In this document: positions 7,325 through 57,949 of the stretch, piece by piece
Numbering within the stretch: position 1 is the first letter of the stretch
How the letters are laid out: each line of letters opens with the position of its first letter
Assembly: GCA_021234155.1 (NCBI GenBank)
Contig: JAJEKV010000003.1
Coordinates: forward strand, 30,487,166-30,551,165
Reading direction: 5' to 3'
DNA: 64,000 bases
From: Isoetes taiwanensis
Taxonomy: Eukaryota > Streptophyta > Lycopodiopsida > Isoetales > Isoetaceae
The notes under the pieces: generated by a model
What the model was told of the DNA's origin: nothing
Seen by the model: the letters and a program-made list of their open reading frames with translations, nothing else
Database searches by the model: none
Translations under genes and position numbers: made by a program

Positions 7325-7558
7325 TTAAAGGTTAATATGATTTATACCATGGTTGATATGGTTATACCATCATCTAAAATGGTTATGTTCATATGTTATA
7401 TATTTAATATGGTTATATAGTTTCAATGGTTACATATGGTTTTAATGTTTACATATGGTTTATATTGAATATGGTTGTATGGTTTAATATGGTTATATGA
7501 TTTTAGTGGTTATATATGGTTGTATGGTTTATATTTAATATGTTTGTATGGTTTTAAT
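7325..7558 (+). repeat. AT-rich ATATGGTT minisatellite within an intron
   Basis: Degenerate repeats of ATATGGTTATAT/TTATATGGTT end at a TTTAATTCAG acceptor, after which the coding frame of the transposon gene opens. The complementary stretch in copy B (about 59285-59505) has diverged freely, as expected of an intron. Confidence 0.6.
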
Positions 7559-7559
7559 T

Positions 7560-10466
7560 CAGGGAGCATGTGAGATGAGCAAAGTGGAGCCAAGGAAGCC
7601 CAGCACAGGCCATTGCCCTAGGCTCCAATGGAGGAAGATGGGTTGCTTGTTGTTGCACCCTTGCAACGAGACGGTATTTGCAGAGGGCATAATAACTGCA
7701 GTTGATCCTTTTGATAGTGTGAATGATGAAAGGCTGGGAGATGATCATCTTGGAGTTGGCATTGTGAAGCTTTTTATCGAAGTTGATACAATCATGTCCC
7801 AGGGAAGCTCTAGTGATTGCATTGTGTGCTCTGGGTTGCTAGAGTCCCAAAGTCAGTTGAGATGGCCAATTAGATATATTACACACAAGAATGGTGATAG
7901 TCTGGAATACCCTACTCAACTACATACCCCAAGACCCACCCAAGGCCATGTGGAAGATTTGGTGGTCGATGAGCATCCTTTGATCACAAGGAAGAGACGT
8001 TATGTTTTTCATAAAAGGCAGCCAAGGGTGCCCAAGAGGCCTAGAAGTAACAAATATTTAGAAAGGATGGAAAGTATGGCCCCAACCAAAGAAAACCTCG
8101 AGGCAATTAGGGGACAAGAGTGTTGCAACCTAGATTGCTGGTCGCGATCTGGTGTGGATGACCTCGTTCGAGATAAGGTCCCAATACATTGGATGACTTC
8201 AAAAAGATAGGATTAATTTCATCTACTCCTTGTGTAAGAATTCCAGCTATGATGAAAACACAGGAAGGCTACTATATCAATTGAGGGGCATGAGGGTATG
8301 TATGAGAGCAGATGGATTCTTGGGGTGAGCAAGTCTTCATTCTACAGATACTGGGAGCATGTTAGAAAAGGGCACAGTTTGTTCCAACATGGTAATGCAC
8401 TCACTTTGAAACCTAGAGCAAATACTCTCAAGGCCATTGCAGTCTTCGAGAGCTTTGTGAGATACATGTCTCAATCTATGCCCCACAAGAATTTGAGCGA
8501 GCACGGGTGCGAGTGGTGCAAAAAGGTGTTGCCACAACACTATATCCAAAAGGAGTGCCTTAAAGAGGTCAACTCCATCCTAGAAACTACTGGAGGTAGG
8601 CCTCTTTCTCAATCACATTTCAGCAAGTTATGGAGCACTCACTTCTCAGACGTGAGTGTCCTGCAACACATGCCATTTTCAAAGTGCAACACTTATATTC
8701 AACTCAAGGATACACTTGCATCAACTGCAATAGAGAAAGAAAGAATGGCAATTAGGGAGTAATTTGCAGATCACCAAAGGGACCAAATATCATGTAGACA
8801 GTTGTATTGGCGGTGGAGAACATTTTTACGAGATCTTGTGGGACAAATTTTTGTGTATAATGCATGATAAGATGGACCAACACAAGACTTTCTTGCCAAA
8901 GCTAGATCCTTTACCCAAGCGTTGTCAAAACGCTTTTCAGATGAAAGTAAGTTTGGCGGGTGTCTTAACACATGGTCATGGAACTGGAACATATGGTCAT
9001 TTTGTGCTTGATCTATGGAGGGATGATCCAAACTTCCATGTGAGCTCTATTTTCAAGTGCTTGAGAACACTAGAGAAAGGATCGATAGAAGGGAGGAGGT
9101 ATTCCCCTTCAGCACCCATTTTTGAGGCTTTGATGGATGATCAACCGCTTTGTTACCAAAGGCGGATAAAAAAAGCTCACATCCAAGGTGTCTAGTGAAT
9201 CAAGGAGGACTTGGGATGATTTCCCTTACTTGAGAAACCCTTTGCGAGGAGCTATGTGTTCAATTGGACAACCTGTTGGAAAGAAAACAAGAATAGATGG
9301 ATGTTTGGGGCAATGTCATACTTGGCGGTGGTGGGAGTATTCAAAGTTGTGAAAGTGGGATTCATGATGGTTGGGCACGCATGATGATATAGATGGATTC
9401 TTTGGAACTTTCTCCACCAAGCTCAAGAGAGAAAACGTGACTAGTCTCCGGGAACTAATTGGATGTGTTTGAGAGGCGCATTGACCCCAACCCAATGGCT
9501 TTCTTGATGGATGAGGTTGATTGGAAATCATTTGTAGAGGGATACTTGCTAGATGGTAAGGACTAGTTGACAGGACACACAAAGCCACTTCAGTTCAAGT
9601 TTTGGGTTAGGGATGGAATACCAATCATGCAATATAAGTGGAGACCAGGTGACAAGTTGTGGATGCCTGTACAAGGAATCGAGTTGTGGCAAAGGGGTGC
9701 TGCTGGTAAAGTTCTCATTCCTAAAGGGCAGCCAAAACCACTACCTCCCTTCAAGACTGTCAAAGACTCTAGCCAACTAGTGAAGGGCATCAAGGATTAC
9801 ATAACGCACTGGGATGATGTTCGAAATGGAAAGCACACCTCCACTCTTAAGAAAAATCAAATGGACTCCCTAATCAAGTACTGGGAGAAAGTTGTGACAT
9901 GCTTAGAAACTGAACAACCATGTGGGAGGAAGCTAAGAGACGGGTTCTTGCCAGAGTCAAGATGGGAGGGTTCTCAAGGAGCAAGCACGTCTAAGAATGT
10001 TCACTTGGGTCCTAACAAGGGTTCCAAGTGGTTTGTGGGAAGTAAGGCCTCAAAGACGAAGTGGTTTTATCTTCCTGAGTGGGATCCCTTTGAGGACATC
10101 AAGGAAGGATACTTTGTGCTAGTAAGGCCTGATGATGAGGACTGTCCAATATGGTTAGGGGTGTCACTCTCTGATGTAACCACCACTATGCCTGATGGAG
10201 AGGAGTTGCATCCTGGATTCCAAATTCAATATTGGGAGCCCATTGGGAGACACAAGGGCAACTTGAAGGAGCAATACACCGACTGCTGGGAGAAGAAGTG
10301 GAGGGCAAATTATGTTGATCCTCAGAGGAGGGAATTGGTGGAGTGTGTGGTATGGTCATATCCAAGTTCTCACACTGCAAAGGAGAACACACACAAGATC
10401 CCAAAAAGGGAGATGGACAAAGCCATGAGCAACCTCCATGCTATATCATTGTATGAGGGTAGATAA
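7560..10466 (+). pseudogene. DUF7869-like transposase-type protein, broken
   Basis: Coding blocks: 7560-8210, 8298-8762, 8764-9195 and 9567-10466, with frameshifts and stops between them. Landmarks in order are QWRKMGCLLLHPCNETVFAEGIITAVDPFDSV, the SKSSFYRYWE...RKGHSLFQHGNAL segment, a CEWC motif, a region with THGHGTGTYGHF, and a C-terminal part with KWRPGDKLWMP. The key HTHDDIDGFFGTFS motif, intact in copy B, is broken here near 9375 by a small change that creates an in-frame stop. DUF7869 proteins are transposon-linked and are thought to carry an RNase H-like core; the exact reaction is not something I can state. The last block alone is 299 codons and intact. Confidence 0.65.
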
Positions 10467-15076: not shown

Positions 15077-16331
15077 ATGAAAGCTCTCACTCATTTCACC
15101 GTTTCAGTTGAAGAACCACCTTGCCTGGTAAGTTTAGCTTGATCTATTCCAAACCCATTTTAATGCCGAACAATCGACATTCTGGATGCAGATCTAACTT
15201 GTTTCATTTTATTTTTCTTGCCGCAGGCTCTTCCTTACCGTAGTATCAGACAGCATATCAAGTCTGACTCCATACTTCTTGAAGGAGATGATGGAGAAAA
15301 CTATAAGGCCCGGCTGTTCAGAAGATCAAAAAACTCAAATAATATTTATGTTGCAGACGGATGGAGCAGATTTGAGCGGGCTCAAGGAATTGGCGAAGGG
15401 GATATTTTGTTCTGTAAGCTGCTGGAAGGGCCCAAACTCAAGATTTCTGTGGCAGAAAAATCTGGCAGGCAAAACGCCCAACATACTGATTCTGATTCTA
15501 ACATCAAGAAGATTTATATGAAGAAAAAAACCCAGGTGCAGGATCTGCCTTTCAGGCTTTCTTGCTTCTTGAATACCCTTTCTCCTTTTCTTTAACAGCG
15601 CTTCTTTCTTTCAGGATCAGGGCACAAGAGGGCAAAACAAGGATCAGATTGATTTTGATTCTAGCATGAAGCACATGTTTAATAAGATTAAGAAGAGGAA
15701 GATTGAGGAGCATGCTGATTCTGGATCTCACTTCGACAGCAGTGTGTTGAAGAAAAAAAGAAAGCCTATTTCAAAAGCAAGCACCAAGATCGAAAAGCCT
15801 ATTTCAAAACCAAGCACCAAGAAGATCGAAAGGAAGAGCAAAATAAATTCGAGAGGGCAAAATGAAACCCGTGCTGGTTCTGAATCTGGTTCTAGCATCA
15901 AGCAGGTCAAGAAGACGCAGATTTTTTCCAAAAAGAGTGTACTTCCAGAGTCAGGCTTAGAATCGAGATCCTTCACCATACTGGAAAAAAGAAAAAATAT
16001 TCCAGCGGCAAGATCATCCAGAAAGAATGCAGTGACAGGTCTCGATTCTGAATTTTATTCTCAAAGCAGTATGCTGGAGAAAGGGAAAGAGATTGCACGG
16101 TCCTGCATTCTCAAACAACGTCAATCCTTGAGCAAAAAGAAAGCAGATCCGACCTCCAAACCAGAGCCTCGAAAGCATGAACAAATGAATCGAGTAAAGC
16201 ATGAAGAGAGGAGTTTTTCATACAAAATTTGCAAACCAGAGCCCTGCACCTGCTCAATCTCAGACTCAGAACTCGAAGAACAGCCTTTTCGTCCTAAAGC
16301 CATGTATTCCAGGTATTGTAACTTCGCGTAG
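15077..16331 (+). CDS. B3 DNA-binding-domain protein (three exons)
   Basis: Exons 15077-15127, 15227-15535 and 15615-16331, all phase 0, with donors GTAAGT and GTGCAG and acceptors GCCGCAG and TTTCAG. The predicted product is 358 residues. Residues about 1-100 form one B3-type domain: MKALTHFTVSVEEPPCL, then the core strands (SILLEGDDGENYKARLFRR, NNIYVADGWSRFERAQGIGEGDILFCKL). The WxxFxxAxGIxEGDxLxFxL pattern is diagnostic of plant B3 folds such as the REM group. B3 domains bind DNA in the nucleus. The remaining 250 residues are basic and Lys/Ser-rich, with near-repeats (KPISKASTKIE/KPISKPSTKKIE; repeated SGSE/DSxS-type motifs), probably disordered and with nuclear-localisation-like clusters. 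A possible donor (CCAG/GTATTG, 16310) near the stop means more exons could follow. It is flanked by AT-rich DNA and is the most credible host gene here. Confidence 0.75.
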
Positions 16332-17687: not shown

Positions 17688-18655
17688 TGGCAATGAAATG
17701 GCAAGATCCTAGACCTGGATTCAAAGTAGTCGCTTCGTAAGCTGGCTTATACCAGTGATAAAACTACAACTGCTTCATCCACTGATAAAATCACAACTCG
17801 GTTCAGAAGAACCCTGCTGCAGGATGACTGTCTAGCTTCATAGATCAAGGCGATGCATTAGGGGCTTCTGTAGCCCTGGATATTTTCACAGAGAAACAAG
17901 CAAATGACGATTTTTGTTGAGGCAGACGAGGCAAGCAAAGGATGTGGCGCCACTCTACAAAATCTGGAGCACTATTATGTGATATAATTTTAAGGGAAAA
18001 ATGCTGTAATATCAATCTTCCGGTCATTACGTGAATAATTATGCTAGCATGCCAAGAAATATAATGTGGTGAATTACCCTTACTAAACTTGATGGACTAA
18101 GCATTATTACATATCATATATACTTACACTACTATAGATGCCAACTATGTTTCGTTGCAATGTAAATAAGGTATGTACGCACAGGTCAAGAGAGCCTTAC
18201 CTTGGATTTGATGCAATGTAAATAAGGTATATACGCACAGATCAAGAGAGCCTTACCTTGGATTCGATGATCATCGCCTCAAAAAAAATCTTGTTCTGGG
18301 GAATCCCCCGCTTGTCTCCCATGGAGCCCATTCTCTCCCTCTGTGACGTCTATACGAATATTCGTATCATATGAACATTATACTCGTATGTACAAAAGAT
18401 GGTCGTCATACGGATACAAAAGGATAGTTCTCCCTCTGTGACGTCTATACGAATATTCGTATCATACGAACATTATACTCGTATGTATAAAAGATGGTCG
18501 TCATACGGATACAAAAGGATAGTTGCACAAGACTTGATTTAAACTCGCAACCTTCTAGGTGCAAGTCCTACACCTTTGCCAAGTGTGCTACCAATATTTG
18601 TTAAAGTCATTCCCTTATTGTTATATCTTTTTCATATGTGGGGCTGTTTCCAGAA

Positions 18656-18677
18656 GGTTCTAGAATATTCTAGAACC
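18656..18677. promoter_or_regulatory. Perfect four-unit heat-shock element in LTR 1
   Basis: A 22-bp perfect palindrome composed of gTTCt, aGAAt, aTTCt, aGAAc in direct succession, the canonical alternating nTTCn/nGAAn array bound by heat-shock factors. It lies about 70 bp upstream of the TATA box. An identical element is at 28778-28799 in the second LTR. Confidence 0.7.
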
Positions 18678-18746
18678 TACATCCATGCGCAACACTTGGC
18701 ATAATCTCATCCACTGGAGTGGCGCGATCCCGACCGTTGGCCTAGA

Positions 18747-18753
18747 TATATAA
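18747..18753 (+). promoter_or_regulatory. TATA box of LTR 1
   Basis: TATATAA followed by GGAGGCACC, with the same sequence and spacing from the heat-shock element as in LTR 2 (28869-28875). Transcription would start about 30 bp further on and run into gag. Confidence 0.6.
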
Positions 18754-19013
18754 GGAGGCACCTCCTTCTTGTCGAACCATTCCAGTTCAACACCAGTCTT
18801 GAGCCTTCTAGACATCTGTCTCGTGTTCCTGCTTACTTTTGGGCCATTGTACTCTTGATTCATGTTCATATATTAGATTCTTTGCCGATCTTGACGTATT
18901 TCTTCTATATTTCTAGCATATTTTTCACGTATTTTCCTTATCAGAATCCCTTACCGGTTCTTGCCTGCTCTGATCCCAATCAATTTTTTGCTTGTATTTG
19001 ATGATTTTATATC

Positions 19014-19551
19014 TATGGAGGAGGTTGACTTTATTACAGCAGGTCCAACAGCTTGTTCAAGTATGCCAGCAGTTGCAGTTGGACAATAAAGTGCTTAAGG
19101 AACGTTTTGCTTCACATGAATCTGCCTTCAGCTCTAGATTGAGGCTATCAGAGCCTAAGATTAGCCTGCCAGAGAAGTTTGATGGCACTCGGTGCAAGCT
19201 CTGTGGTTTTCTGAATCAGATCAGGCTTGTGATCCAGCTCATCCTCATAGATATCCTATAGCCCAGAAACTTGTTGGACTGATTGGTTCTCTCCTCACAG
19301 GGCTAGCTCTAAGTTGATTTGCTCCTTTATCGGAGAAAGGAGCCCCAGAATTGCAAGATTTTGCTGCTTTTACTGTAGAGCTCGAGGCATGCTTTGGAGA
19401 CACCGATCGTCAGCACGCAACAGTCATAAAACTTTGCAATCTAAGGCAAGGCTCAGAGCCTGGTAGATATTGTTCTGAACGATATTGCACTTCGAGATTG
19501 TTTCCGAAGGGGGTTACGTAAGGATGTCAAAGATATGTTGTTGTCTATGGA
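19014..19551 (+). pseudogene. Gypsy gag, 5' part of first copy
   Basis: Matches the gag at 29165-29735. It has a glutamine-rich coiled-coil-like start (LLQQVQQLVQVCQQLQLDN in the second copy), then ERFASHESA...RLSEPKISLPEKFDGTRCKL, a typical retroelement gag opening (a set-up phrase before the capsid-like domain). Frameshifts near 19030 and 19230 and a stop break it. The coding sequence is interrupted at 19551 by the CACTA-like element and resumes at 25707. Confidence 0.6.
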
Positions 19552-20263
19552 CACAAGGCCCCCAAAAAAGAACCATTACCAGTTTTTCACAACAGTTTTT
19601 ACATAAAACTAGTATAATAAACCAATATTACTAAGTGGGTTAATGTGTTGAATAACCACTACTAGTTACATAGTATAGTTCTTATTTATGGTTTATTACT
19701 CTAGTTTATTACCACATTTCATCTTCGTGGTTTCTTATGGTAGTTTGTTTGCATTTTAAGTATGTGGAAAAGTCCATGTTGTAGACCAGAAACCATTAAT
19801 GGATTTGTTTTTAAATATTTGTAGAATCTAAAGTGGTTTCAACATGAAATTATTTATATTTTTTCATAGGAATCAATGTCGTTGCATACAAGAAAATGTA
19901 TCTATTTATTATGATGGTTTGCCATTATGATAGTAAAGATTTGCATATCAAATCAATAGTGCTTTGGACAATGCAATTAGTGTTAGTTTAGTGACATAAT
20001 TAAGGCATATCCAACTTGAAAATCAATGCCACTATGAATAAGTATCATGAGTTTCTCCATTACATAATCAATGTTTTGCTATCTCAAACGTTATTGGTTT
20101 CTGAAACAAATTAAGAAAGGTTCATTGAACATCCCATTGTTGTTGTATGGTAGGAAAACGTAATATCTATATGCAAGTCTATCAAGCAAATTGATGCAAG
20201 TTTTTGTGTTAAAACATTGATGAGAGCTTTACGAAAGCATTGATGATCAGTTTATGAACCGAG

Positions 20264-20274
20264 GGATTTGAACC
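20264..20274 (-). promoter_or_regulatory. Pol III B-box-like motif of a tRNA-derived fragment
   Basis: The minus strand reads CCAGGGTTCAAATCCCTCGG, containing GGTTCAAATCC, a perfect match to the B-box consensus, within a T-arm-like stem. No complete tRNA cloverleaf can be drawn around it, so a SINE or tRNA relic is likelier than a tRNA gene. Confidence 0.4.
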
Positions 20275-20443
20275 CTGGTATTTCCATGTTTCGCACAAAT
20301 GAAAGTACTTGTCACAAACAATATAATATATGACTAACTTTCCTACTATCCTTAAACAAAATCAGTCAGACATTAGAAGAGATTGCAAAGGTTTCAAAGG
20401 ATTGGAAATAACAACCCATTAACTTGCCTCCCTTACAAAGATA

Positions 20444-22044
20444 TCACAATTTCGTCTTGCAATATTCTTTCTCATGGTGAGTTTCCTTATAAGCCAAACC
20501 ATTTAAGTTTGTGAAGCAAAGACTGTTTTCAACTTCTATTTCCTGTGTCACAGTGCCAGCTCTATCACTTTTCCGATCATTTTCAGTTGTTGAACTTAAA
20601 GAATCATCAGGATCTATTTGTTCAATATTACGCAGCTCGACAAGATGTACAAGTGCTTTGTTTCCCATCTGAGCGACACCATCACCAATAAGGTGTACAC
20701 CAGAAAGAAGACCTTGCTTATATTCTTCTTCCTTGGGACTGGATGTATTCTCACTCCCAGTATTTGTCCCATTCATATCTTCATTGCAGGGAAGAAAGGT
20801 GTCGTCATGACCTTCTGAGAGTGGTATTCTGTTAGAATAAGCCAAAGACACACCTCCATCGGAAACATTCCTCCTGCGGCAAATTGGACTAATATTCTTT
20901 CCGTTGTCTGTCATATAGTTCAGGCTTACCACATGCAACACATGAAGGTTCGTGATTAAGTGAGTAGGATAGCCTGCGAGCAAAATTTCGACATTCAGAC
21001 AATGGAGATCCAGGCTAAGTTCGTAAGATGTGCGCATCTTAAAATAAGATGCTTAGATGTAGATGTGTGCGCATCGACACCCGCATCTTACATAGATGCT
21101 TCACCTATTTTTTTCAATTTTTTTTTTTTTTTTCAAAAAACACTTGGATTATGTTGCCTGGTACTGCTGACCCTAAAATAGGTGCAATTTGTTGCCTCTT
21201 TTGCCTTTTCTAACCATTGTTTCTTCAAAGCTCTCTGTTTGGCGATGGAGCAAGCAGCAATCCCAGTCTGTAAGGTCTATAAGGAGGTCGAGATTTGAGC
21301 CAAAAGTTTGCATCAGGATTGGGAGGTCAGCAATAGAGAAAAGGGGTTTGCTGCAACAGGCTAGGAGACCTACAACAAGGCAAAAGAATCTGCAGCAAGA
21401 AACTTGTAACAGTAAGATCTGTAACGGTTTTCTCTTCTATTGTTTATATATATTTTGTATTTTAGTTCTAAAAGACTCTATAGATCAAAGGTATCTAAGG
21501 CTGCAATGGAGTGAAGGTATTTCCCAATAATTTAATTTAATTTTTTAACGCATCTTAACCGCATCTTAAAACTTAGATGCTTTCGATGTGTCGCATCTGA
21601 CGCATCTCTCTTAAGATGCTTTTGAACTTAGGATCCAGGCCCATCATATTTATTAGCAGAATTCAGAACATCCAACTGCTGCTGCAAATCAACCATATCT
21701 GCTTTCATTTTTTCATCTTGCAGATGGCGACTTTGTTTTCGTTCTTCATTCTCCCTTATTCTTTGCAGGTGTTCTTTCTTCCAAGCTGCTTTGTCCTCCT
21801 GAGCTCGTGCTCTGGCCTCAACTTGTTGTGCTGCTAAATATTGTAGGACCTGAGAGAACTCCATTGAACAAAACACTTGAGATTGAATGCCCACAATGCA
21901 AAATATCGTGATATCTACAAGAGCGGACTTAGCAGTGATTTTGAAACCATAGTCATACTTGTAGAGGCCAAAAATGCTGAATGGGTTACAACCTATCCCA
22001 TCCATGAAGCCAAAATATGGGAGCTTGGAAGAAGAGGGAAGCAA
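20444..22044 (-). pseudogene. Gene fragment carried in the CACTA element, split by a hAT-like insertion
   Basis: Reading on the minus strand from 22044, a helical, charged segment (QYLAAQQVEARARAQEDKAAWKKEHLQRIRENEERK, DLQQQLDVLNSANKYDGPGS) runs to 21632. The 21015-21631 insertion follows. Removing it leaves a continuous frame, PLSECRNFARRLSYSLNHEPSCVACGKPELYD, which ends after a few more codons; an open frame in another phase then continues to 20444. The CVACG motif and coiled coil give no family I can name. It may be a transposon accessory protein or a captured host gene fragment. Confidence 0.4.
21015..21631. mobile_element. hAT-like 617-bp element nested in the CACTA element
   Basis: It starts CTAAGTTC and ends GAACTTAG (8-bp perfect terminal inverted repeat), flanked on both sides by GATCCAGG (21007-21014 and 21632-21639), an 8-bp target duplication. 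Subterminal regions are packed with AGATGC/GCATCT motifs in both orientations. The interior 21190-21520 has no recognisable coding motif. An 8-bp duplication with short ends fits hAT; CTAAG is not the usual hAT terminus, so the superfamily is uncertain. Confidence 0.7.
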
Positions 22045-22799
22045 CTATGAGTATAAAATTGTACAGTCTTAGAAAACGAAATATTACATTTCCTTTCTTC
22101 ATAATGGTACCCCTCATGCGAAAAAATGCCATCGAAAAATGCAAGGTAGCCCAAATGTAGGAGATCATACTGAAGGGTTCCTGTTATGAATACAAGGAGA
22201 AGTACGAGATGCAGAAAATGGCGATAGAAAAGGAAACGGAAATAGTCTAGCCAAGTCCCAGCGATCCTTCGTTGCATAAGAAATTGCTCGACCATGCCAA
22301 CTTATCCTTTAAAAGAAAATGCTACGGGGACGGGCGCACTCTAAGTGGCTCTCGCATATAACTTTGCTCGTGGCGAAAGCAAGAGACTAAAAATACCATA
22401 AAGTAAGCAACAAGCATTTGACGGTCATCAATTGCTAGACCTGCATGTGAAATACAAGTTATTATCATTAATACAAAAGCAGCAACCTGGAAACATCACA
22501 ATCAGTATCCTTACCTCTGCTCCTTTGGCCAGTACCATCCTTTAAGTGAAGGGGGGAAGCCCCTTTTCTATGATCCTAAAGGCAGATCTGATGAGTCTGG
22601 CACCTATCAGTATAAAGAAACGTTGAAGGGAAAGAACCTACCTTAAAATGAACAGAGCGATTGTCCAGAGTGACTAGATCAGTAAAAAGACTCAGTTTGC
22701 ACTCTCCCTAATCTTGTAACAAAAATCCGTACAATTCTGGCACTTTGACTCCTCATCTCTAGGTATATAAGCATCTAACAAAGCCTCCATCCCCCCCTC

Positions 22800-23320
22800 C
22801 CCCTTGACCATAAACAATCTTTCGTCAGCACAATCATTTAAGTTACCTAGGAATAATCAGGGACAGATTTATGAAAAGAAACAACGTAGAAACTATGAGA
22901 AACAAAGCTCACATTTTCAACAATGTGGTCTAGAAGTAGATCCTACTGATGCTGGCCATATGCATATTCCATGCAAATATAACAAGAGTCTTTGAAAAAA
23001 CTGTAAGAAGACAACAAATAGGAGTTGCTTTCCCCCTGACACATATCTCAACACGGCAATGCATGATGCAATTTTGGGCCCAAGTCGGTGGACCTGAGCT
23101 GTCTGATCACATGCTGGTATCACAGAAAGGCATGGTTCATGAGGAAAACGAAAGAAAAATTGAGGCAAAGCTTTGGGTTGAGGCAAAAAAAAAGCTAATC
23201 CATCCAGCTAAAACTCTTGATGCTTCTAGGATGGTTGGTCCTTCTAGGATGGCGATTGCTCTGCATCACAAAGAAGAGATTAGGAAGGTAATATGCATCT
23301 CACACACATATAGCACTTAA
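22800..23320 (+). other. Possible exon-like open frame in the CACTA interior
   Basis: Frame 22949-23320 includes IGVAFPLTHISTRQCMMQFWAQVGGPELSD...EENERKIEAKLWVEAKKKLIHPAK. Composition is protein-like but I recognise no family. Confidence 0.25.
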
Positions 23321-24427
23321 TATTCAGTTGGATAGTATGCATCACACAGGGTACGTTACAACAGATATTATATGATGTCTATCCGTGCAAATGTGAGTTA
23401 AGAAATTGGATATCATCAAAGTATAACATGAAATGAATGCCCAACTTCTTATATATGATATGAAATGCCTTCCAACAGCACGCAAGAGTTGTTTCTGGAT
23501 CTACCTCAAACTTCACAAGCATAAACAGAAATAGATTAAATAAGCAAAAGCAGGTTACCTATCCATTTTGAAATGTCTCCGGTACTTTCTCGAGCTGGAA
23601 GTATCAAGTTTTCCAAGATCAACAACCTGCATTTATGAAGAGGGGATCTTTTTATTAAAACGATAGATAGACGAGGCATTTCTGGATTGGATAGAAAGTA
23701 GACAATACCGGAAATGAATTTGAATAGGACCTAATTCCCGTTTCTTTCTTTCTTTCACAACATTTTTGAGAAACAGATTCAACAGAGCTATCTGCCATTC
23801 TTGGCATTTTGTAGGCAGGCTTTTGAGGCCGAATTCTTGCTTAAAACTTTTTGCACTAATCACCTCTTAAAAATTGAGACCGAGAGAGATTGAATGCTGC
23901 TTACCGGTAAAATCAATGTGCCACTATGCCTGAATCTTCTGCTCCTTTACCAATCCATATGCGCATAGAATAGCAGAAACAACAAACGGCCGAATGCAGG
24001 AGAGGAATGGCCGTCATAGGGTTAGGTAAAAAAATTAGGGTTAGGGGAAAAAAACACACACACAACAAGAAGTCCTTTTTGGGGGGTTAAATCAAAATAC
24101 CTTTCTTAAGTCGAATACTAGAAGGGAGAAGGGAAGTTTTTAAAATTGTGATAATTTTTCAGATAATAGCTAGCATGTTTGTTTTTAGTCCGTAGTGATC
24201 CATTTTTTTTTTTGCATGTTATTCAATACCGCTTTAGATTTGAACTAGAAAACTAGAGCCATTAACAAGCACTATAAGAAGCAGGCGAGGGTGAAATAAC
24301 AGTTGGATAACATGCACCCCAACTTGATGCACCCGAACTTGGCGGTGGAAGTTGGATTCCATCCCATCTCTACAAATTTTCTAAATAGCATTAGTGGGTA
24401 TAAAAGACATTTGAGATGTATATCTAT

Positions 24428-25035
24428 AGGAAGGAAGGAAAAATTTTTAACGTCCACGGAACCCAATCGGGTTATGGGACCAAGTACATAAGGGACCGAA
24501 GTCCTGGACCGAAGTCCAAACAAGAACATGGGCCGAAGCCCTTAAACCAAAGCACAACGTGAGCTAGAACACAACCATCATGACCCGGATTAAAAACCAC
24601 CTGGGAAAAAACCGTTGCCAGGATGACTATGGCTGCTCACCGATCCAAAAATCCATGCTGTTGCACAAGCAACAAGCATACCTTCATACCTCCAGCAGGC
24701 AAAGCTTCACCAAGCAACTCCGAACCGTAACCTCTTCACAACTGGGTGCTGGAAAACAGACGCCCCCAACGCCAATCGCCCAGACACGCAGGGAAGGCGG
24801 CGCTCAGAAAAACCGCTCAGGGAAATCGCCCATCGGAGGTGCCTCCTCACCCATCCACCAGCCCTGCGCCAAGGCGCCAGCACCCCCAGGTATGCGCGCA
24901 GGCGGACATCCACTCAGGCACACACAGGGGCGCCATCCTTCACTGCCGCTGCTCCAACGCCATCCATCATTGCATCCGCTCGGGCAGGCCTCAGGCAGCG
25001 CCTATAGGGCAGGGCGATGCAACGAAATACTATAG
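24428..25035 (-). mobile_element. LINE 3' end fragment
   Basis: On the plus strand, GGAAGGAAGGAA (24429-24440) is followed by TTTTTAACGTCCACGGA, the same junction as at the LINE fragment at 55518-56340. The LINE therefore lies on the minus strand with a TTCC-repeat tail. Inside are short repeats (ACCGAAGTCC twice) and a GC-rich stretch from 24590 on. The 5' truncation point is not defined; 25035 is where GC content falls. No reverse transcriptase motif is left. Confidence 0.5.
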
Positions 25036-25479
25036 TTCTCCATTTTATTAGTATGCCTATTCCACATAGTCACTTCCTTTCGCATTAACCATGCCTTCAC
25101 GGGAGAGAATAGTTGGCCAGGAAATACCTGACTAGATATTATTTTTTATCAATATTGCCATCAACTATAAATTCCTCTTCTAACATATATCACTCAACAA
25201 CCATTTTCTTGTAGTAGAAAACTCATACGATCTAACCACATGCACACACATCTGGGCTTGTACATACCTAGCAATCCCATTTTATTTGAAGTTCCTTATA
25301 GCTACCAAGAATTATGTCGGTTGCCTATCCAAACTAATTGCCATTATGTAACCTTGGTTCTTTATCCAATACAAGATGAATTTTGAGTTTATGTTCAAGG
25401 AATTGTAATTTAGGCAATAAAAAGAAATTAGATCTTTTGGCTTCTCAAAATTTATGGAGTGACCATCACTAGTTTTAAT

Positions 25480-25610
25480 GAACCACTATAGTATGCACGA
25501 GAACCACTACTAGTCTAATAAACCACTATATCGCTGATAATTTTCGTTAATTTTCGTATCAAAAACCACTATGAGTATTGAAAAACCACTAATGCATGTG
25601 GTTTTCTTCT
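25480..25610. repeat. Subterminal AACCACTA repeats of the CACTA element
   Basis: At least five AACCACTA copies in about 130 bp, plus inverse GTGGTT copies nearer the end. Left-end counterparts (19600-19760) are fewer and degraded. CACTA transposases typically bind such subterminal repeats. Confidence 0.65.
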
Positions 25611-25706
25611 GTCAAGAAAATTTATGCATAAAAAACCATGTATATGGTGGTTTTTAGATAATATGGCACTAGTTAAATACAATAGTTCATTTTTGGGCTC
25701 CTTGTG

Positions 25707-26039
25707 GGAGGACCCTCAAACTTTGGAAGAAGCCATCATGTGGTTCGATGTGATAATCGGCTCTTCGAACGTAGGCAAGAGAGACATAATCAAATCTTTT
25801 CAATCACACATGCGCCTGTAGCCACGCCTTCCCCGGTCTCCTCTGTAGAATCCAGCAGGTCCGGATCTGAGCCTATGCAGATTGATCGGGCAGTTCGAGA
25901 ACTTTTATCTGCCACCGAGAAGAAGCGTCGGAGAGAGGCTAATCTTTGCCTATACTGTGGAGGAGCTGGTCATATTGCTCGTGGATGCCCCGTGAAGCGC
26001 TCAAATCAATTGAAAAACTTCGGGGGCGGGTCCAAGTAG
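25707..26039 (+). pseudogene. Gypsy gag, 3' part with CCHC zinc knuckle
   Basis: It continues the gag broken at 19551. It encodes a Pro/Ser linker (MQIDRAVRELL...) and a CCHC knuckle, CLYCGGAGHIARGC, the nucleocapsid motif that binds element RNA, followed by a stop at 26037. The homologous part of the second gag (29740-29975) loses similarity within this knuckle. Confidence 0.65.
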
Positions 26040-26850
26040 TAGGAGTCTCTCATCGGCTGGCCGCCTTTTCTCAGACTCCTTCTACACTTCTTGACATGTT
26101 TATTCCATCGGATAAGGTCAGCAAGACATTTTTCATCTCTATATTATTGAAATCAGAGGTTGGAAGGTTAAAAGCATTGGTGCAACTTGATTGTGGTGCA
26201 AATGCTTGGTTTATGGATAGTGCATTCGTCAGTAAACATGTCATCCCTAGAAGCTAGGTTGAGCATCCCAGTTCTGTCGATGTGATTGATGGCCGGGAGA
26301 TCTCCTCGGATGCAATCACAGAATGTACTACGCCTCTTCAGATTTTGTTCGAGGGAGTTTCTTGTAGCATTTCCTTCAATCTCATCGCTAGCCCACATGC
26401 GTCTTGGGTCTACCCTGGCTCGAGCTACATAACCCATAGATTGATTGGCGTACTAGATCATTTCGATTTGCTAGTTCTAGCTCTAGTTCCAGTAAATCTG
26501 CACTTCAGGCCTCTGCACCAACATCGACTTCAGTCCGTATAATATCGTGGGCTCCTGATTCCGTCCTTGATGTTCCTGTTTTTGCTCCATGTTCTGATTC
26601 GACTCTTTTCTCTGCTCCAATTTATGTCGCAGATTCTGACCACGCTGTCGATCATGTCCCAGGTCTAGTTTGTTCAAGTTCCTGCTCCAGTTCCAGTTCC
26701 AGTTCTAGCTCCTACTCCTGTAGAGGCTTCCTCATGCCCTAAGTTTCGTATCTCGAAGATTTCACTTTACGAGTTTATTAAATCTGGAAGGCAAGATCCA
26801 AGTTCAGTATTTGCAATCCAGGTTCATCTATCGGCTAGCTCTGCACCAAT
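26040..26850 (+). pseudogene. Gypsy protease and linker remnant
   Basis: One frame gives VGRLKALVQLDCGANAWFMDSAFV, which resembles the retroelement aspartic protease active-site strand, with DCG in place of the usual D-[ST]-G. Surrounding frames contain stops. From 26500 to 26760 the strand is rich in CAG/TCC-type simple sequence encoding alternating Ser/Val/Pro in broken frames. Confidence 0.45.
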
Positions 26851-27678
26851 GAAGTCCGCCCCAATGCTCCCAGATAAATATGGCGACTTCTCTGATATTT
26901 TTGACAAAGTCAAGGCCAGCAAGCTTCCAGAGCATCGTCCATATGATTGTCCTATTGATTTGCAGCCCGACACAATGCCACCATATGGTCCGATATATTG
27001 TCTATCTCCTGCTGAGTTGAAGGTTTTGCGGGATTATATTACTAGCCACTGATTTCGTTCGACATTCCCAGTACCCTGCTGGAGCGCCTATTTTCTTCGC
27101 CTGCTGAAGATGATTCTCTGCGTCTGGTCGTTGATTATTGTGGCCTCAATAAAATCACAGGTGGCCTCAATAAAATCACAATGCCAAATCGTTATCCTCT
27201 TCCTCTAATCCCAGAGTTGTTGGAGCGATTCCAAGGTGCGCGTTATTTTACGAAGATTGATCTTCGAGGTGCCTACAATCTTATCTGGATCCGGGAAGGT
27301 GATGAGTGGAAAACAGCTTTTCGTACTCGGTATGGCCACTTTGAGTACACAGTAATGCTGTTTGGGCTTACCAATGCTCCAGTAATATTCCAGCATATGG
27401 CCAATGATGTCTTCCGGGAGTTCTTAGACACTTTTGTCATCATCTATTTGGATGATATTCTCATTTATTCTAAGACTCTTGAAGAACATGAGAGGCATGT
27501 TCGACAAGTCCTTCAGAAGCTTCGTGAGCACGGATTATATGCCAAACGTGAGAAGTGTCAGTTCGAACAGGATAATGTGGAGTTCCTTGATTATCATATC
27601 ATTCCACATGGTATGGATTCTAAAAAGGTTAGCACTGTTCTAGAGTGGCAAACACCTTCATCCGTTTTAGATGTTTAG
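26849..27678 (+). pseudogene. Gypsy reverse transcriptase
   Basis: 26849-27052 encodes the segment before RT (LPEHRPYDCPIDLQPDTMPPYGPIYCLSPAELKVLRDYI). After a disrupted stretch, 27181-27678 encodes RT motifs: MPNRYPLPLIPELLERFQGARYFTKIDLRGAYNLIWI, WKTAFRTRYGHFEYTVMLFGLTNAPVIFQ, and the catalytic YLDD at 27445-27456. The PYPLP/FTKIDLRGAY pattern is diagnostic of Ty3/gypsy. A 21-bp direct duplication (GTGGCCTCAATAAAATCACA, 27140-27181) inserts seven codons just before the RT core. Confidence 0.8.
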
Positions 27679-28007
27679 TGTTTACTTGGGTTTTCCAATT
27701 TCTATGGGCATTTTATTCCGGATTTATTCGGAGATTTCCCTTCCTTTAACACGTCTCACGGTTAAGGACGTGCCATTTGAATGGAGCGTGGAAGCGGAAT
27801 CTGCTTTTGTTACTTTGAAGCATGCTTTTGTTCTTGCTCATGGAGATCGTTTGCGGCCATAAGTTGTCGAAGCAGATGCTTCTGATTTTGCCCTTTGTGG
27901 TATCCTGCCACAGGAGGAGGATAACCATGAATTGCATCCAGTCGCCTATCACTCGCGGAAGTTTCAGGCTGCTGAAATCAATTATACCATTTATGACAAG
28001 GAGTTGT
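27671..28007 (+). pseudogene. Gypsy RNase H, truncated at the LTR
   Basis: Frames carry LPLTRLTVKDVPFEWSVEAESAFVTLKHAF and [18 protein letters not shown]...[25 protein letters not shown], the RNase H domain of gypsy elements, with a TAA interrupting at about 27860. The domain is cut after YDKELLAMK where the second LTR starts. Integrase is absent. Confidence 0.7.
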
Positions 28008-29105
28008 TGGCAATGAAATGGCAAGATCCTAAACCTGGATTCAGAGTAGCTGCTTTGTAAGCTGGCTCATGCCAGTGATAAAACTACAACTGCTTCATCC
28101 GCTGATAAAACCACAACTGCGTTCAGAAGAACCTTGCTTCAGGATGATTTTCTGTCAGCTTCATAGATCAAGGCGATGCATTACGAGCTTCTATAGCCCT
28201 GGATATTTTCATAGAGAAAAAGGCAAATGACAATTTTTCTTGAGGCAGACAAGGCAAGCAAAGGAAGTGGCGCCGCTCTGCAAAATATGGACACTATTAT
28301 ATGATATAATTTTAAGGAAAAATGCAGTAATATCAACCTTTCGATCATTACTTGAATAATTATGCTAGCATGCCAAGAAATATAATGTGGTAAATTACCC
28401 TTACTAAACTTGATGGACTAAGCATTATTACATATCATATATACTTACACTACTATAGATGCCAACTATGTTTCGTTGCAATGTAAATAAGGTATGTACG
28501 CACAGGTCAAGAGAACCTTACCCTGGATTTGATGATCATCGCCCCAAAAAAACCTTGTTCTGGGGAATCCCTCGCTTGTTCCCCATGGAGCCCATTCTCT
28601 CCCTCTGTGATGACCACACGGATATTCGTATCATACGAACATTATACTCGTATGTACGAAAGATGGTCGTCACACGTATGCAAAAAGATTGTTCTATAAG
28701 ATCGGGTTTGATCTTTACCAAGTGCACTACCAATATTTGTTAAAGAGTCTTTTTCATATGCGGCGTTGTTTCCAGGAGGTTCTAGAATATTCTAGAACCT
28801 ACATCCATGTGCGACACTTGGCATGATCTCATCCATTGGAGTGGCGCGATCCTGACCGTTGGCCTAGATATATAAGGAGGCACCTCCTTCTTGTCGAATC
28901 ATTCCGGTTCAACACCAGTCTTGAGCCTTCTAGGCATCTGTCTTGTGTTCTTGCTTGCCTTTGGACCATTGTACTCTTGATTCATGTTCATATATTAGAT
29001 TCTTTGCCGATCTTGGCATATTTCTTCTGTATTTCTTGCGTATTTTTCAGGTATTTTCCTTGTTTTCGTGTAGGTTCATGATATTTTGAACCGGAATCCC
29101 TTACC
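28008..29105 (+). repeat. Gypsy LTR, second copy (3' boundary approximate)
   Basis: Homologous to 17688-18965 but lacking the 95-bp internal duplication and most of the tRNA-like segment, and with an extra ...TAGGTTCATGATATTTTGAACC stretch near 29070. It retains the same heat-shock element (28778-28799) and TATA box (28869-28875). Confidence 0.65.
28778..28799. promoter_or_regulatory. Perfect four-unit heat-shock element in LTR 2
   Basis: Identical in sequence to 18656-18677 and at the same distance from the TATA box (28869-28875), although the surrounding LTR sequence has diverged by substitutions. Confidence 0.7.
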
Positions 29106-29164
29106 GGTTCTTGCCTGCTCTAATCCTAAGCATTTTTTTGCTCGTATTTGATGATTTTATATCT

Positions 29165-29975
29165 ATGGAGGAGGTTTCAACTTTATTACAGCAGGTCCAG
29201 CAACTTGTTCAAGTATGCCAGCAGTTGCAATTGGACAACAAAGAATTTAAGGAACGTTTTGCTTCACATGAATCTGCCTTAAGCTCTGGATTGAGGCTAT
29301 CAGAGCCTAAGATTAGCCTGTCAGAGAAGTTTGACGGCACTCGGTGCAAGCTCCGTAGTTTTTTAAATTAGATCAAGCTTATGATCCAGCTCATCCTCAT
29401 AGATATCCCACGGCCTAGAAACAAGTTGGGCTGATTGGTTCTCTCCTCATAGGGCCAGCTCTAAGTTGGTTTGCTCCTTTAGTGGAGAAAGGAGCCCCAG
29501 AATTGCAAGATTTTGCTGCTTTCACTGCAGAGCTCGAGGCATGCTTTGGAGACACTGACACCGATCGTCAGCATACAGTAGTCACGAAACTTTATAATAT
29601 AAGGCAAGGCTCTCGTCCAGCTTCAATATATGCTTCAAAATTTCGTCAAATTGCGGTAGATACTGCCTGGGATGATGTTGCACTTTGAGATTGTTTCCGA
29701 AGGGGGTTATGTGAGTATGTCAAAGATATGCTGTTGTCTATGGAGGACCCTCAAACTTAACGTAGGCAAGAGAGACATAGTCAAGTCCTTTCAATCACAC
29801 AAGCACCTGTAGCTACGCCTTCCCCGGTCTCATCTGTAGAATTCAGCAGGTCCGGACCTGAGCTTATGCAGATTGATCGGGCAGTTCGAGAACCTTTATC
29901 TGCCGCCGAAAAAACAAACCGATCAAGCGTGCCATGCGACAAAACAATCTCTTCAAATAGAGGGGCTGGTCATGC
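29165..29975 (+). pseudogene. Second, partial gypsy gag
   Basis: The start (MEEVSTLLQQVQQLVQVCQQLQLDN, ERFASHESALSSG) is open to 29371, where a stop occurs. 29482-29688 gives ELQDFAAFTAELEACFGDTDTDRQHTVVTKLYNIRQGSRPASIYASKFRQIAVDTAWDDVAL, a retrotransposon gag capsid-like segment. After a 16-bp gap relative to copy 1, similarity continues through the Pro/Ser linker and fades within the zinc knuckle at about 29970. Confidence 0.65.
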
Positions 29976-41582: not shown

Positions 41583-43304
41583 TTATCTACCCTCATACAA
41601 TGATATAGCATGGAGGTTGCTCATGGCTTTGTCCATCTCCCTTTTTGGGATCTTGTGTGTGTTGTCCTTTGCAATGTGAGAACTTGGATATGACCATACC
41701 ACACACTCCACCAATTCCCTCCTTTGAGGATCAGCATAATTTGCCCTCCACTTCTTCTCCCAGCAGTCGGTGTATTGCTCCTTCAAGTTGCCCTTCTTGT
41801 GTCTCCCAATGGGCTCCCAATATTGAATTTGGAATCCAGGACGCAACTCCTCTTCATCAGGCATAGTGGTGGTTACATCAGAGAGTGCCACCCCTAACCA
41901 TATTGGACAATCCTCATCATCAGGCCTTACTAGCACAAAGTATCCTTCCTTGATGTCCTCAAAGGGATCCCACTCAGGAAGATCAAACCACTTCGGCTTT
42001 GAGGCCTTACTTCCCACAAACCACTTGGAACCCTTGTTAGGATCCAAGTGAACATTCTTAGACGTGCTTGCTCCTTGAGAACCCTCCCATCTTGACTCTG
42101 GCAAGAACCCGTCTCTTAGCTCCCTCCCACATGGTTGTTCAGTTTCTAAGCATGTCACAACTTTCTCCCAGTACTTGATTAGGGAGTCCATTTGATTTTT
42201 TTTAAGAGTGGAGGTGTGCTTTCCACTTCAACATCATCCCAGTGCGTTATGTAATCCTTGATGCCCTTCACTAGTTGGCTAGAGTCTTTGACAGTCTTGA
42301 AGGGAGGCAGTGGTTTTGGCTGCCCTTTAGGAATGAGAACTTCACCAGCAGCACCCCGTTGCCACAACTCGATTCCTTATACAGGCATCCACAACTTGTC
42401 ACCTGGTCTCCACTTATATTGCATGATTGGTATTCCATCCCTAACCCAAAACTTGAACTGAAGTGGCTTTGTGTGTCTTGTCAACTGGTCCTTACCATCA
42501 AGCAAGTATCCCTCGACAAATGATTTCCAATCTGCAACCTCATCCATCAAGAAAGCCATTGGGTTGGGGTCAATGCAGCTCTCAAACACATCCATTAGTT
42601 CAGGGAGACTAGTCACGTTTTCTCTCTTGAGCTTGGTGGAGAAAGTTCCAAAGAATCCATCTATATCATCATGCGTATGCCCAACCATCATGAATCCCAC
42701 TTTCACAACTTTGAATACTCCCACAACTGTCAAGTATGACATTGCCCCAAACATCCATCTATTCTTGTTTTCTTTCCAACAGTTGTCCAATTGAACACAT
42801 AGCTCCTCAGGCAGTTGTTTCTCAAGTAAGGGGAAATCATCCCAAGTCCTCCTTGATTCACTAGACACCTTGGATGTGAGCTTTTTATCGCCTTTGGTAA
42901 CAAAGCGGTTGATCATCCATCAAAGCCTCAAAATGGGTCTTTGAAGGGGAATACCTCCTCCCTTCTATCGATCCTTTCTCTAGTGTTCTCAAGCACTTGA
43001 AAATAGAGCTCACATGGAAGTTTGGATCATCCCTCCATAGATCAAGCACAAAATGACCATAGGTTCCAGTTCCATGACCATGTGTTAAGACACCCGCCAG
43101 ACTTACTTTCATCTGAAAAGCGTTTTGACAACGCTTGGGTAAAGGATCTAGGTTTGGCAAGAAAGTCTTGTGTTGGTCCATCTTATCATGAATTATACAC
43201 AAAAATTTGTCCGGCTGCATCTCAGAAAATGTTCTCCACTGCCAATACAACTGTTTACATGATATTTGGTCCCTTTGGTGATCTGCAAATTGCTCCCTAA
43301 TTGC
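41583..43304 (-). pseudogene. DUF7869-like protein, C-terminal part (copy B)
   Basis: Three consecutive frames (43304-42885, 42916-42377, 42367-41583) with small frameshifts. They include LPKRCQNAFQMKVSLAGVLTHGHGTGTYGHFVLDLWRDD, WMFGAMSYLTVVGVFKVVKVGFMMVGHTHDDIDGFFGTFSTKLKRE (the His-Thr-His-Asp-Asp-x-Asp motif typical of DUF7869), and a C-terminus ending NLHAISLYEGR. An early stop near 42378 (GTATAAGG instead of the coding form in copy A) separates the last part. The acidic HTHDDID cluster is the best candidate for a catalytic site, by analogy only. Confidence 0.65.
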
Positions 43305-43713
43305 CATTCCTAGGATGGGTCCTATGATACAACTAGTTAGTGAAGTGGTGTTCTCATTGAGCTTTGTAAAACATTGAGTACAAATGGACCCCTCACTAGG
43401 GATAGATAAATTTGGAAATGTGAACTTTAAATGCTCTGAAACTAGACAATCATCGAGAGCATGATGAAACTGAAGAATACAACATGAAAGATGGTTTTAT
43501 CCGCCACTTGGTCGATGCAAAGGTGAGAAGACTCGGTGACTGCTCCTCATCGGAAAGAAGAATCACGCCTTCTTAGTTTTTTTGAGGAAACCCAAGCAAA
43601 TAGTTAAAGCACGACCCCACGCACTATGGCAACCACAAGACCCTAACAATCCTGCAGAAATCAAGGCTGAAAGAAAAATAACCCGTCAATGAATTAGATG
43701 CCATGGGCAAGAA

Positions 43714-57062: not shown

Positions 57063-57090
57063 TCTGGTATCAGAGCAAGGGTGATCCAGG

Positions 57091-57944
57091 ATGTCTAGTA
57101 GGTTTGGAGCATCTCTGTTGAGTGCTATTGAGGTGTATACAGGAGGAGCTGGCTTCCAAGTGTGGAAGGAGAAAATAAAATATGTGTTAGAAGTGGAGGA
57201 TCTGTGGTACCTAGTAGATGGAGATGGGAATGGAGTAGTAGCTGCAGCAAGCTCAGTTGCAGAAGGAAGTGATAGCAGCACTGGTGCAGCTGCTGGAGGT
57301 ACAAATGAAGGAGTCATTGCAACCATTAGCTACTGGTGTTCTTGGTGGGAACGAGAAAAAGCTAAGATTAAAGAAGCACAAGGCATTATCTGCAGCAAAG
57401 TGGGCTCTTCAATTCTCTTAAAATTAAGAGGTATGTCACCTAAGCAAATGTGGCAATATATGCTTAAGAATTTTGAAGCTAAAACATCATCACAATTAGA
57501 CGTACTGGATAAAGAGCTGAAGAAACTAAGATACAATGAAAATGAGGATATAACAGAGTTTTTTCAGAAACTAGACAATATAGTTGCAGACATGGAGGGA
57601 GCAGGCGTAATGATTACAATGGAAAGTCAAGTACTGGCAGTCTCTCGAGCTTTTGCAAGGTATGAACACTTGTCCACATTAGTAAGAAACATAGCAAGAA
57701 TAAGAGAAGAAATTTGAAAAAATGGTCAGAACTGAACTTGCACAAAAACGGATGCTAGATGATGAGAATGAGCATGCCTCTGAGATTTTATATTCTGGAA
57801 AGAACAAAGGAAAAGATGAAGGATCAAACAGAATTGGACCATGCTATAACTGCAATCAGTTTGGACACTTGAAAGCAAATTGTAATAAGCCTCAAAGAGA
57901 CAATAACTGCTTCAATTGCGGAGGCAGAGGACATATGGCAGCCA
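57091..57944 (+). pseudogene. Second, truncated copia gag
   Basis: Starts MSSRFGASLLSAIEVYTGGAGFQVWKEK, with the N-terminus intact here where the first copy is frameshifted. It has its own frameshift near 57715 (GAAATTTGAAA in place of GAAGCTGAAA) and a diverged patch at 57315-57355. It ends within the second zinc knuckle (CFNCGGRGHMAA). Confidence 0.85.
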
Positions 57945-57949
57945 CGTTC

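Follow-up and report, generated by a model that had tools for sequence, protein, structure and literature searches.

The window analysed here is a stretch of 64,000 nucleotides from the lycophyte Isoetes taiwanensis (contig JAJEKV010000003.1, positions 30,487,166 to 30,551,165 of the forward strand). It carries two copies of the long terminal repeat (LTR) of a Ty3/gypsy retrotransposon, in each of which the perfect 22-bp palindrome GGTTCTAGAATATTCTAGAACC lies upstream of a TATATAA box. The palindrome is found at only two sites in the window, 18656-18677 and 28778-28799, exactly where a first-pass annotation of this DNA had reported it, and is built of four contiguous alternating TTC/GAA units. 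At least three contiguous alternating inverted nGAAn units make a heat-shock element (HSE), and here there are six at 18648 and four at 28780. We propose, with a probability of about 0.68, that the site is a four-unit HSE through which the U3 promoter of a high-copy Tcn1-type chromovirus was, and in intact relatives may still be, activated from upstream, probably in response to heat. Published work is cited by PMC accession.

A heat-shock element in the LTRs

The first-pass annotation had counted four units in both LTRs, which stands for the second copy (units 28780-28797), whereas the array of the first copy extends to six contiguous alternating units (18648-18675). From the start of the palindrome to the TATATAA box we measure 91 bp in both copies, one of the two distances given earlier (90 and 91 bp) being thus corrected. 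Four-unit HSEs (TTCNNGAANNTTCNNGAA) occur three times in the window against 0.01 expected, a number reached by none of 100 dinucleotide shuffles; the three arrays represent one event, since the first LTR contributes two overlapping arrays and the second LTR is homologous to it. The surroundings of the site do differ between the two LTRs, through substitutions, a 95-bp duplication (18342-18436) and indels, as had been described. Two copies are nevertheless too few to judge whether the site stayed unchanged while the rest varied, and 98 further copies were sampled instead.

A genome-wide search for such copies, suggested in the same annotation, covered an assembly of 1,658,258,908 bp in 1110 pieces and returned 509 exact 22-mers (the sequence being palindromic, each is reported on both strands), with none for the reversed control. 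A 20-mer around the TATA box, allowing up to three mismatches, was found at 830 + 908 places (control, 34 + 35). The 98 copies were drawn without using the HSE: 38 were the best-scoring by similarity to the downstream part of the LTR (18700-18925) and 60 came from the 100 places listed by exact match to the TATA 20-mer. At the expected place (-140 to -50), at least four perfect contiguous units are present in 30 of the 38 and 42 of the 60 copies, together 72/98, and at least three in 35 and 46, respectively. In five control segments taken from these LTRs no four-unit array occurred in either set (0/38 and 0/60 each), a single copy in one segment showing three units. Among neighbouring LTR pairs, which overlap the sampled copies, 8 of 13 have four or more units in both LTRs.

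The site also varies less than the sequence around it. The alignment comprised 92 of the 98 copies, since six (L005, L060, L074, L082, L091 and L121) are without upstream homology or a homologous site region; three of these (L005, L074 and L121) are restored in a 95-copy run. Nucleotide diversity (pi) is 0.038 in the HSE unit columns and 0.125 in the U3 columns without CG or CHG context, about threefold more, and no random set of such columns out of 20,000 was as low as the unit columns. A site varying as fast as the neighbouring LTR, which the first-pass annotation had named as grounds for giving up its reading, is therefore not what the family displays. When a mask is slid along the LTR, the site ranks 19th of 462 starts, the 15 lowest all falling on the TATA region, which is the sampling anchor.

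The distribution of changes within the site is informative as well. The two TTC-TA-GAA spacers show pi values of 0.022 and 0.043, and of 0.127 and 0.022, compared with 0.130 and 0.388 for the central GAA-nn-TTC spacer (92 copies). In structures of heat-shock factors (HSFs) bound to DNA, the dinucleotide leading from TTC to GAA is preferably pyrimidine-purine, and that leading from GAA to TTC is unconstrained (PMC8379338). The family follows this rule, the TA spacers being kept and the central spacer left to vary; a perfect 22-bp palindrome is retained in only 9 of 40 TATA-chosen copies, and 13 of the 40 share a central A-to-G change that abolishes palindromy and leaves the HSE units intact, most of these 13 having a fifth unit. 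Judged from these alignments, the view that variation follows the binding rules of HSFs, and not those of a palindrome, is supported, and an HSF is favoured over another factor because the family varies where HSF structures tolerate change. The high-affinity motif of Arabidopsis HSFA2/HSFA3 is TTCtaGAAnnTTCt (PMC10230730).

The retrotransposon family and its local copies

The LTR of the family, TGTGACG...GTTCATGACA, is about 480 bp long, with bounds set by where BLAST alignments to 38 other copies stop. In copy L015 the C-terminus of pol carries an SH3_Tf2-1 domain (E 1.4e-14) and a chromodomain (PF00385, E 1.2e-15) immediately ahead of the 3' LTR, and L010 does likewise; this evidence comes from other family copies, the window element being without that part. 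By eye, the L015 chromodomain shows candidate residues for an aromatic cage, namely W and Y within ...VDWEGY... and an F further upstream. On these domain matches the family is a high-copy Ty3/gypsy chromovirus. Self-priming of reverse transcription, described in Tf1/Sushi elements, has been predicted for the majority of Tcn1-clade chromoviruses in mosses and club-mosses (PMC6317226). Both the self-priming site and the C-terminal chromodomain of that clade are found here, which makes membership of the Tcn1 clade likely.

The putative primer is the sequence ATTCCGGTTCAA (Table 1), complementary over 12 nt to a site located 2 nt past the end of the second LTR, and the transcript is predicted to start there because of this match, which in turn would place the HSE at about -123 to -102. 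We considered 14 LTRs with an internal region behind them (13 fetched copies and the second of the window), of which 13 were measurable; the in-register 12-nt pairing has no mismatch in four, one in three, two in four, and three and four in one each. Where the pairing is imperfect, the longest uninterrupted run is not above that of shuffled controls.

The two LTRs of the window had been taken as the pair belonging to one gypsy element. Their assignment to Ty3/gypsy holds, but a shared flank of about 600 bp (17688-18341 and 28008-28605; 92% alike over 529 bp) precedes both of them, which points to a tandem duplication instead. Elsewhere in the genome the best place for this flank matches 341 of 641 bases (40 of 46 candidates scored), and a tblastn comparison of the flank with the chromodomain end of the family gave no match. 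The last 40 bases ahead of the LTR are alike in both places, with no polypurine tract among them. Ordinary 3' LTRs of the family adjoin the chromodomain end of pol directly. A 5'/3' pair is thus ruled out by the shared flank and by the lack of both chromodomain end and polypurine tract, and the LTRs look like products of a tandem duplication that comprised the flank, the 5' LTR and the 5' internal region, as far as the alignments tell. Since they arose in this way, their divergence (45 of 456 aligned positions; 35 of 523 between the flanks) dates the duplication and not the insertion.

Both local copies are decayed: by eye, the RNase H sequence is cut short and no integrase is seen before 28008, the primer site of the first copy is deleted, and after neither LTR does the gag start offer an open stretch of more than 89 codons in any frame. 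The two copies of the window cannot transpose by themselves. Their spacing of 10.3 kb includes a later insertion of about 6.15 kb in the gag of the first copy (19552-25706), with ends CACAAGG...CCTTGTG, terminal inverted repeats about 85% alike over 26 bp, and a 3-bp target duplication, GGA (19549-19551 and 25707-25709). By the hallmarks of that superfamily, it looks like a CACTA-type DNA transposon. In the second copy the corresponding site, near 29738-29749, is empty, and the insertion looks like an arrival after the tandem duplication.

Table 1. Features of the two local LTR copies and their surroundings (window coordinates)
Feature	Position	Strand	Basis
Flank before first LTR, outside the element, duplicated before second LTR	17688..18341	.	
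First LTR copy; starts TGTGACG; 95-bp duplication 18342-18436 / 18437-; 3' end and primer site deleted	18342..18943	+	
Extended HSE, six alternating TTC/GAA units, first LTR	18648..18675	+	
22-bp palindrome / four-unit HSE, first LTR	18656..18677	.	Exact match, shuffle test
TATATAA box, first LTR, 91 bp downstream of site start	18747..18753	+	
Predicted transcript 5' end, first LTR, ATTCCAGTTCAA; one change from self-priming sequence; TATATAA start +32 nt	18779..18790	+	Self-priming match
Gag fragment; CCHC-type zinc knuckle by eye (CLYCGGAGHIARGC)	25686..26036	+	No Pfam match
Reverse transcriptase fragment of gypsy element, RVT_1 E 7.5e-36	27046..27675	+	Pfam
Second flank copy; tandem-duplication junction at about 28007/28008	28008..28605	.	
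Second LTR copy, 478 bp, TGTGATG...TTCATGATA	28606..29083	+	
22-bp palindrome / four-unit HSE, second LTR (units 28780-28797)	28778..28799	.	
TATATAA box, second LTR, 91 bp downstream of site start	28869..28875	+	
ATTCCGGTTCAA, predicted transcript 5' end, folding back as primer; TATATAA start +32 nt	28901..28912	+	
5' internal region (leader and gag start) after second LTR, to end of homology with first copy	29084..29912	+	
TTGAACCGGAAT, predicted self-priming primer-binding site, 2 nt past LTR end, complementary to 28901-28912 over 12 nt	29086..29097	+	

Other features of the window lie apart from this element. About 2.7 kb upstream of the first LTR, an open frame encodes a B3 DNA-binding domain (15164-15592; Pfam E 8.1e-9). 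A protein-coding repeat (e.g. ...GHGTGTYGHFVLDLWRDDPNFHVSSIFKCLRTLEKGSIEG...) is present in at least three full or partial copies, in both orientations (7539-10463, 41586-43496 and 57895-58782); the one piece scanned, 9567-10463, has no Pfam match. Two long frames (712 and 665 aa) at 51479-55550 form, by eye, a nearly complete and possibly young copia-like element, a second copy of its start lying at 57085-57714.

Heat-shock elements in host genes and other repeats

The genome encodes the factors that would read such a site, the HSF DNA-binding domain giving 16 matches over the cut-off, 15 of which stop at profile position 59 or 60, as they would if an intron divided the domain. Six HSP70 loci were examined, starting from a plant cytosolic HSP70 as query, to which the N-termini of genes L141 to L143 are identical. 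A perfect four-unit array lies at -212 from the ATG of L142, and a perfect three-unit array at -260 in L141, with a TATA box at -147. L143 has three-unit arrays with one mismatch only, and L144, a copy with a stop, has weaker sites only, further up. Two perfect three-unit arrays accompany L146, whose start was not identified, and for L145 no start was found. Read at this level, the host HSP70 genes use the same HSE grammar as the LTR. The HSP70 N-terminal query gave 138 matches, many of them clustered on contigs C1055, C1068 and C910; these are matches and not gene counts, and they suggest a local expansion of HSP70.

Perfect four-unit HSEs number 10,040 in the genome, compared with 436 for the reversed pattern, a 23-fold excess over this composition control. 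As a rough estimate (42/60 x 1,738), the LTR family may supply about 1,200 of these arrays, about an eighth of the total. We classified the first 50 of the 10,040 places (contigs C1-C11), 44 of which are covered by 20 stretches (L039-L058): 29 belong to a repeat family, B, 10 to another, C, and five to other stretches; of the remaining six places, one coincides with an exact 22-mer of the LTR family. The LTR has no similarity to these 20 stretches beyond 18-28 bp of HSE, and families B and C have only short stretches, of 60-260 bp, in common.

Family B is dispersed, with 2,427 first-look candidates as a rough count, and nine of its loci (13.8 kb) together contain 53 arrays of three or more units, the longest having eight. 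Family C is satellite-like and lies beside CT-rich tandem arrays, with 20 such arrays, up to nine units, in seven loci (8.7 kb). Shuffled means are 0.0 (eight B loci) and 0.05 (seven C loci); the loci were chosen for holding HSEs, and their density is not the family average. In both families together, the TTC-nn-GAA spacer is TA in 59 of 78 cases, and the other spacer is mixed, the commonest being CA (20 of 68). A guess that family B forms an LTR pair was unsupported. Around 14 other gypsy loci, representing about two other groups by mutual similarity and being the best 14 of 150 scored by the SH3_Tf2-1 profile among 13,075 first-look candidates, neither a perfect array of at least three units nor a one-mismatch four-unit array was found in about 3.2 kb each, although their LTRs are undelimited and some may lie outside these stretches.

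Possible functions of the site

According to the reading we prefer, heat or another proteotoxic stress would lead host HSF trimers to bind TTC-TA-GAA-nn-TTC-TA-GAA at about -123 to -102, and RNA polymerase II would start at ATTCCGGTTCAA, 32 nt past the TATATAA box. The first 12 nt of the transcript would then fold back on the complementary site just past the LTR and prime reverse transcription. Given fold-back priming and the copying of LTRs, every transposition would therefore copy the heat switch along with the element. The HSE would have served as the activating site of the family, and in intact relatives of the window copies it may still do so.

Several observations weigh against this interpretation. 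Fewer than four perfect units remain in 26 of the 98 sampled copies. The gain of a fifth unit shows no excess, the nine G-to-A events at 28776 being unexceptional beside other columns with up to 17, and selection for it was dropped. At small-HSP genes, the strand-symmetric HSE scan gave 0 of 10 loci with an HSE, and one perfect three-unit array in 10 upstream stretches, with starts uncertain as introns are likely. In the 95-copy run, a stretch at about 28816-28843 equals the site in conservation. A tree built without the site (92 copies) speaks in favour of the reading, in that the 12 unit columns show one internal and 19 terminal changes, against 120 and 730 in 180 other columns, and random column sets were as low in 139 of 20,000 cases for internal and 1 of 20,000 for terminal changes. 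With 95 copies the counts become 3 and 26, compared with 187 and 802 (179 columns). The deficit extends to the terminal branches, where selection on an active lineage should not act alone, and the contrast between internal and terminal changes is not significant in Fisher tests (P 0.34 and 0.33).

The two LTRs of a single insertion, which record post-insertion changes only, point in the same direction. In all, 41 pairs were tried, 13 from neighbouring TATA places and 28 at a guessed distance of 4.55-5.95 kb; 20 partners were not found at the guessed distance, three were found but too diverged, and 18 were used. The unit columns differ at 6 of 212 positions in these 18 pairs, compared with 178 of 3,294 in the rest of U3 (P about 0.06), and at 13 of 242 compared with 249 of 3,841 in all 21 pairs found. 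These comparisons supersede an earlier multiple alignment of 13 pairs (unit columns 5/147, other U3 195/2,391), whose ends were misaligned. The divergence of the pairs, to which no clock was applied, is 1.7-11.3% for the 18 used and up to 16.3% for all 21, and by this measure no sampled pair is very recent. Part of the conservation of the site may stem from lower mutability or from noise in the alignments. Because the units also mutate less within LTR pairs, though not significantly so, and another stretch is equally conserved, the case for selection on an active lineage at the unit columns is suggestive only.

Heat is one of several stresses to which HSFs respond, and the group includes class B factors such as TrHSFB2a. 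The strongest competitor to a heat-driven promoter accordingly keeps the HSE and its HSFs and changes the signal, to oxidative stress, submergence and reoxygenation, or spore development, or else has a repressive class B factor silencing the element. This would suit I. taiwanensis, an aquatic plant with crassulacean acid metabolism (PMC8566536), but four-unit arrays elsewhere correlate with heat induction (PMC5059998), and we regard it as a minority view to be taken seriously. Somewhat less probable is that the site is a relic, an ancestral HSE kept by shared ancestry and low mutability and not by present function. Besides the age of the LTR pairs and the lower mutation of the units within them, such a relic would be consistent with the base context of the site, since 52 U3 columns (28606-28859) have CG or CHG context in at least 5% of copies and none of the 12 unit columns is among them. 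Yet matched columns free of that context vary three times more, unit-column changes on internal branches are few, change is concentrated in the spacer that HSFs tolerate, and, even so, the promoter of the ancestor would have been driven by HSFs. It is unlikely that the main role of the LTR HSEs today is that of enhancers for host genes nearby, a role that the many HSE-bearing repeat copies and the precedent of Helitron HSEs in Caenorhabditis elegans (PMC6927752) would allow, as the position of the site relative to the TATA box fits expression of the element itself first. Finally, a function of the palindrome as such (by forming a cruciform, as an RNA hairpin in the 3' U3, or by binding another dimeric factor) is rejected as highly improbable, for despite the perfect copies among the 40 and at 509 places in the genome, many copies break the palindrome without breaking the HSE, the central changes are uncompensated, and the site is upstream of the predicted start and so outside the 5' leader.

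Thus, the best reading of these sequences is an HSF-driven LTR promoter that is ONSEN-like in logic and not in family. The likeness to Arabidopsis ONSEN drawn in the first-pass annotation is borne out for the arrangement, a four-unit HSE at promoter distance in the LTR that most sampled copies keep, and not for the family, which is gypsy and not copia. The LTR promoter of ONSEN contains a cluster of four nGAAn units, present in all eight Arabidopsis ONSEN LTRs, and is without CG or CHG sites (PMC3907296, PMC5059998). In Brassicaceae COPIA elements, heat induction of up to a thousandfold accompanies four-unit HSEs, and the HSE is likewise matched in conservation by other parts of the LTR (PMC5059998). 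The Isoetes element resembles the heat-responsive families ONSEN/ATCOPIA78, COPIA37, TERESTRA and ROMANIAT5 in having an HSE in the LTR, with four units as in ONSEN and no CG or CHG in the site. It differs from ONSEN in being Ty3/gypsy and not Ty1/copia, given the SH3_Tf2-1 and chromodomain at the end of pol, in having about 1,700 TATA-anchored places in a lycophyte host instead of a few copies, and in an LTR with many CG and CHG columns, though none among the units. Heat induction is established for ONSEN and predicted here.

Closer relatives offer a different comparison. Elements of the Tcn1 clade, such as SM-Tcn1 of Selaginella, share the chromodomain at the C-terminus of pol, an LTR of similar size (440 vs 478 bp), ends of the TG...CA type and, for most of the clade, predicted self-priming (PMC6317226, PMC2864245), although in SM-Tcn1 itself neither tRNA priming nor self-priming was found (PMC2864245). 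In a PCR survey that included Isoetes histrix, Selaginella alone among these plants yielded Tcn1-like clones (PMC2864245). The accessible parts of these accounts of the clade do not mention HSEs (PMC6317226, PMC2864245). In Cryptococcus, a fungus, the LTR elements TCN3 (Ty3/gypsy) and TCN12 carry putative HSEs and are mobile at 37 C (PMC12810828). The moso bamboo elements PHRE1 and PHRE2 are Ty3/gypsy with heat-activated LTRs, but these bind TCP20, DOF2 and GATA factors, and the term HSE is absent from the main text (PMC8656106). In Caenorhabditis, as here, repeats hold a very large share of the HSEs of the genome; those are Helitrons, DNA transposons, whereas in Isoetes they are an LTR family and two unclassified repeats (PMC6927752). 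Searches of the accessible literature, in which subscription journals are mostly uncovered, for HSEs in gypsy LTRs, ONSEN-like elements, Isoetes repeats, heat shock in Isoetes, and heat-responsive retrotransposons of lycophytes brought up no report of such a case.

Heat-responsive plant LTRs are best known from low-copy COPIA elements of Brassicaceae, and the present family would extend the same logic to a high-copy Ty3/gypsy chromovirus of a lycophyte. The putative HSEs of TCN3 and TCN12 raise the question of whether HSF control is recurrent in Tcn1-related chromoviruses or has been repeatedly reinvented. More tentatively, and we would sooner doubt it than rely on it, HSEs could be a shared regulatory currency of Isoetes mobile DNA, used by the LTR family and by at least two repeat families unrelated to it (B and C), so that heat could trigger a genome-wide programme of HSFs acting on repeats. 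If true, this would mean a coordinated transcription of selfish elements, or the titration of HSFs and their nuclear clustering on repeats. The excess of four-unit HSEs bears on whether a stress-response site helps a mobile element to spread, and whether it rewires or burdens the heat response of the host, where several kinds of mobile DNA may be activated together by heat.

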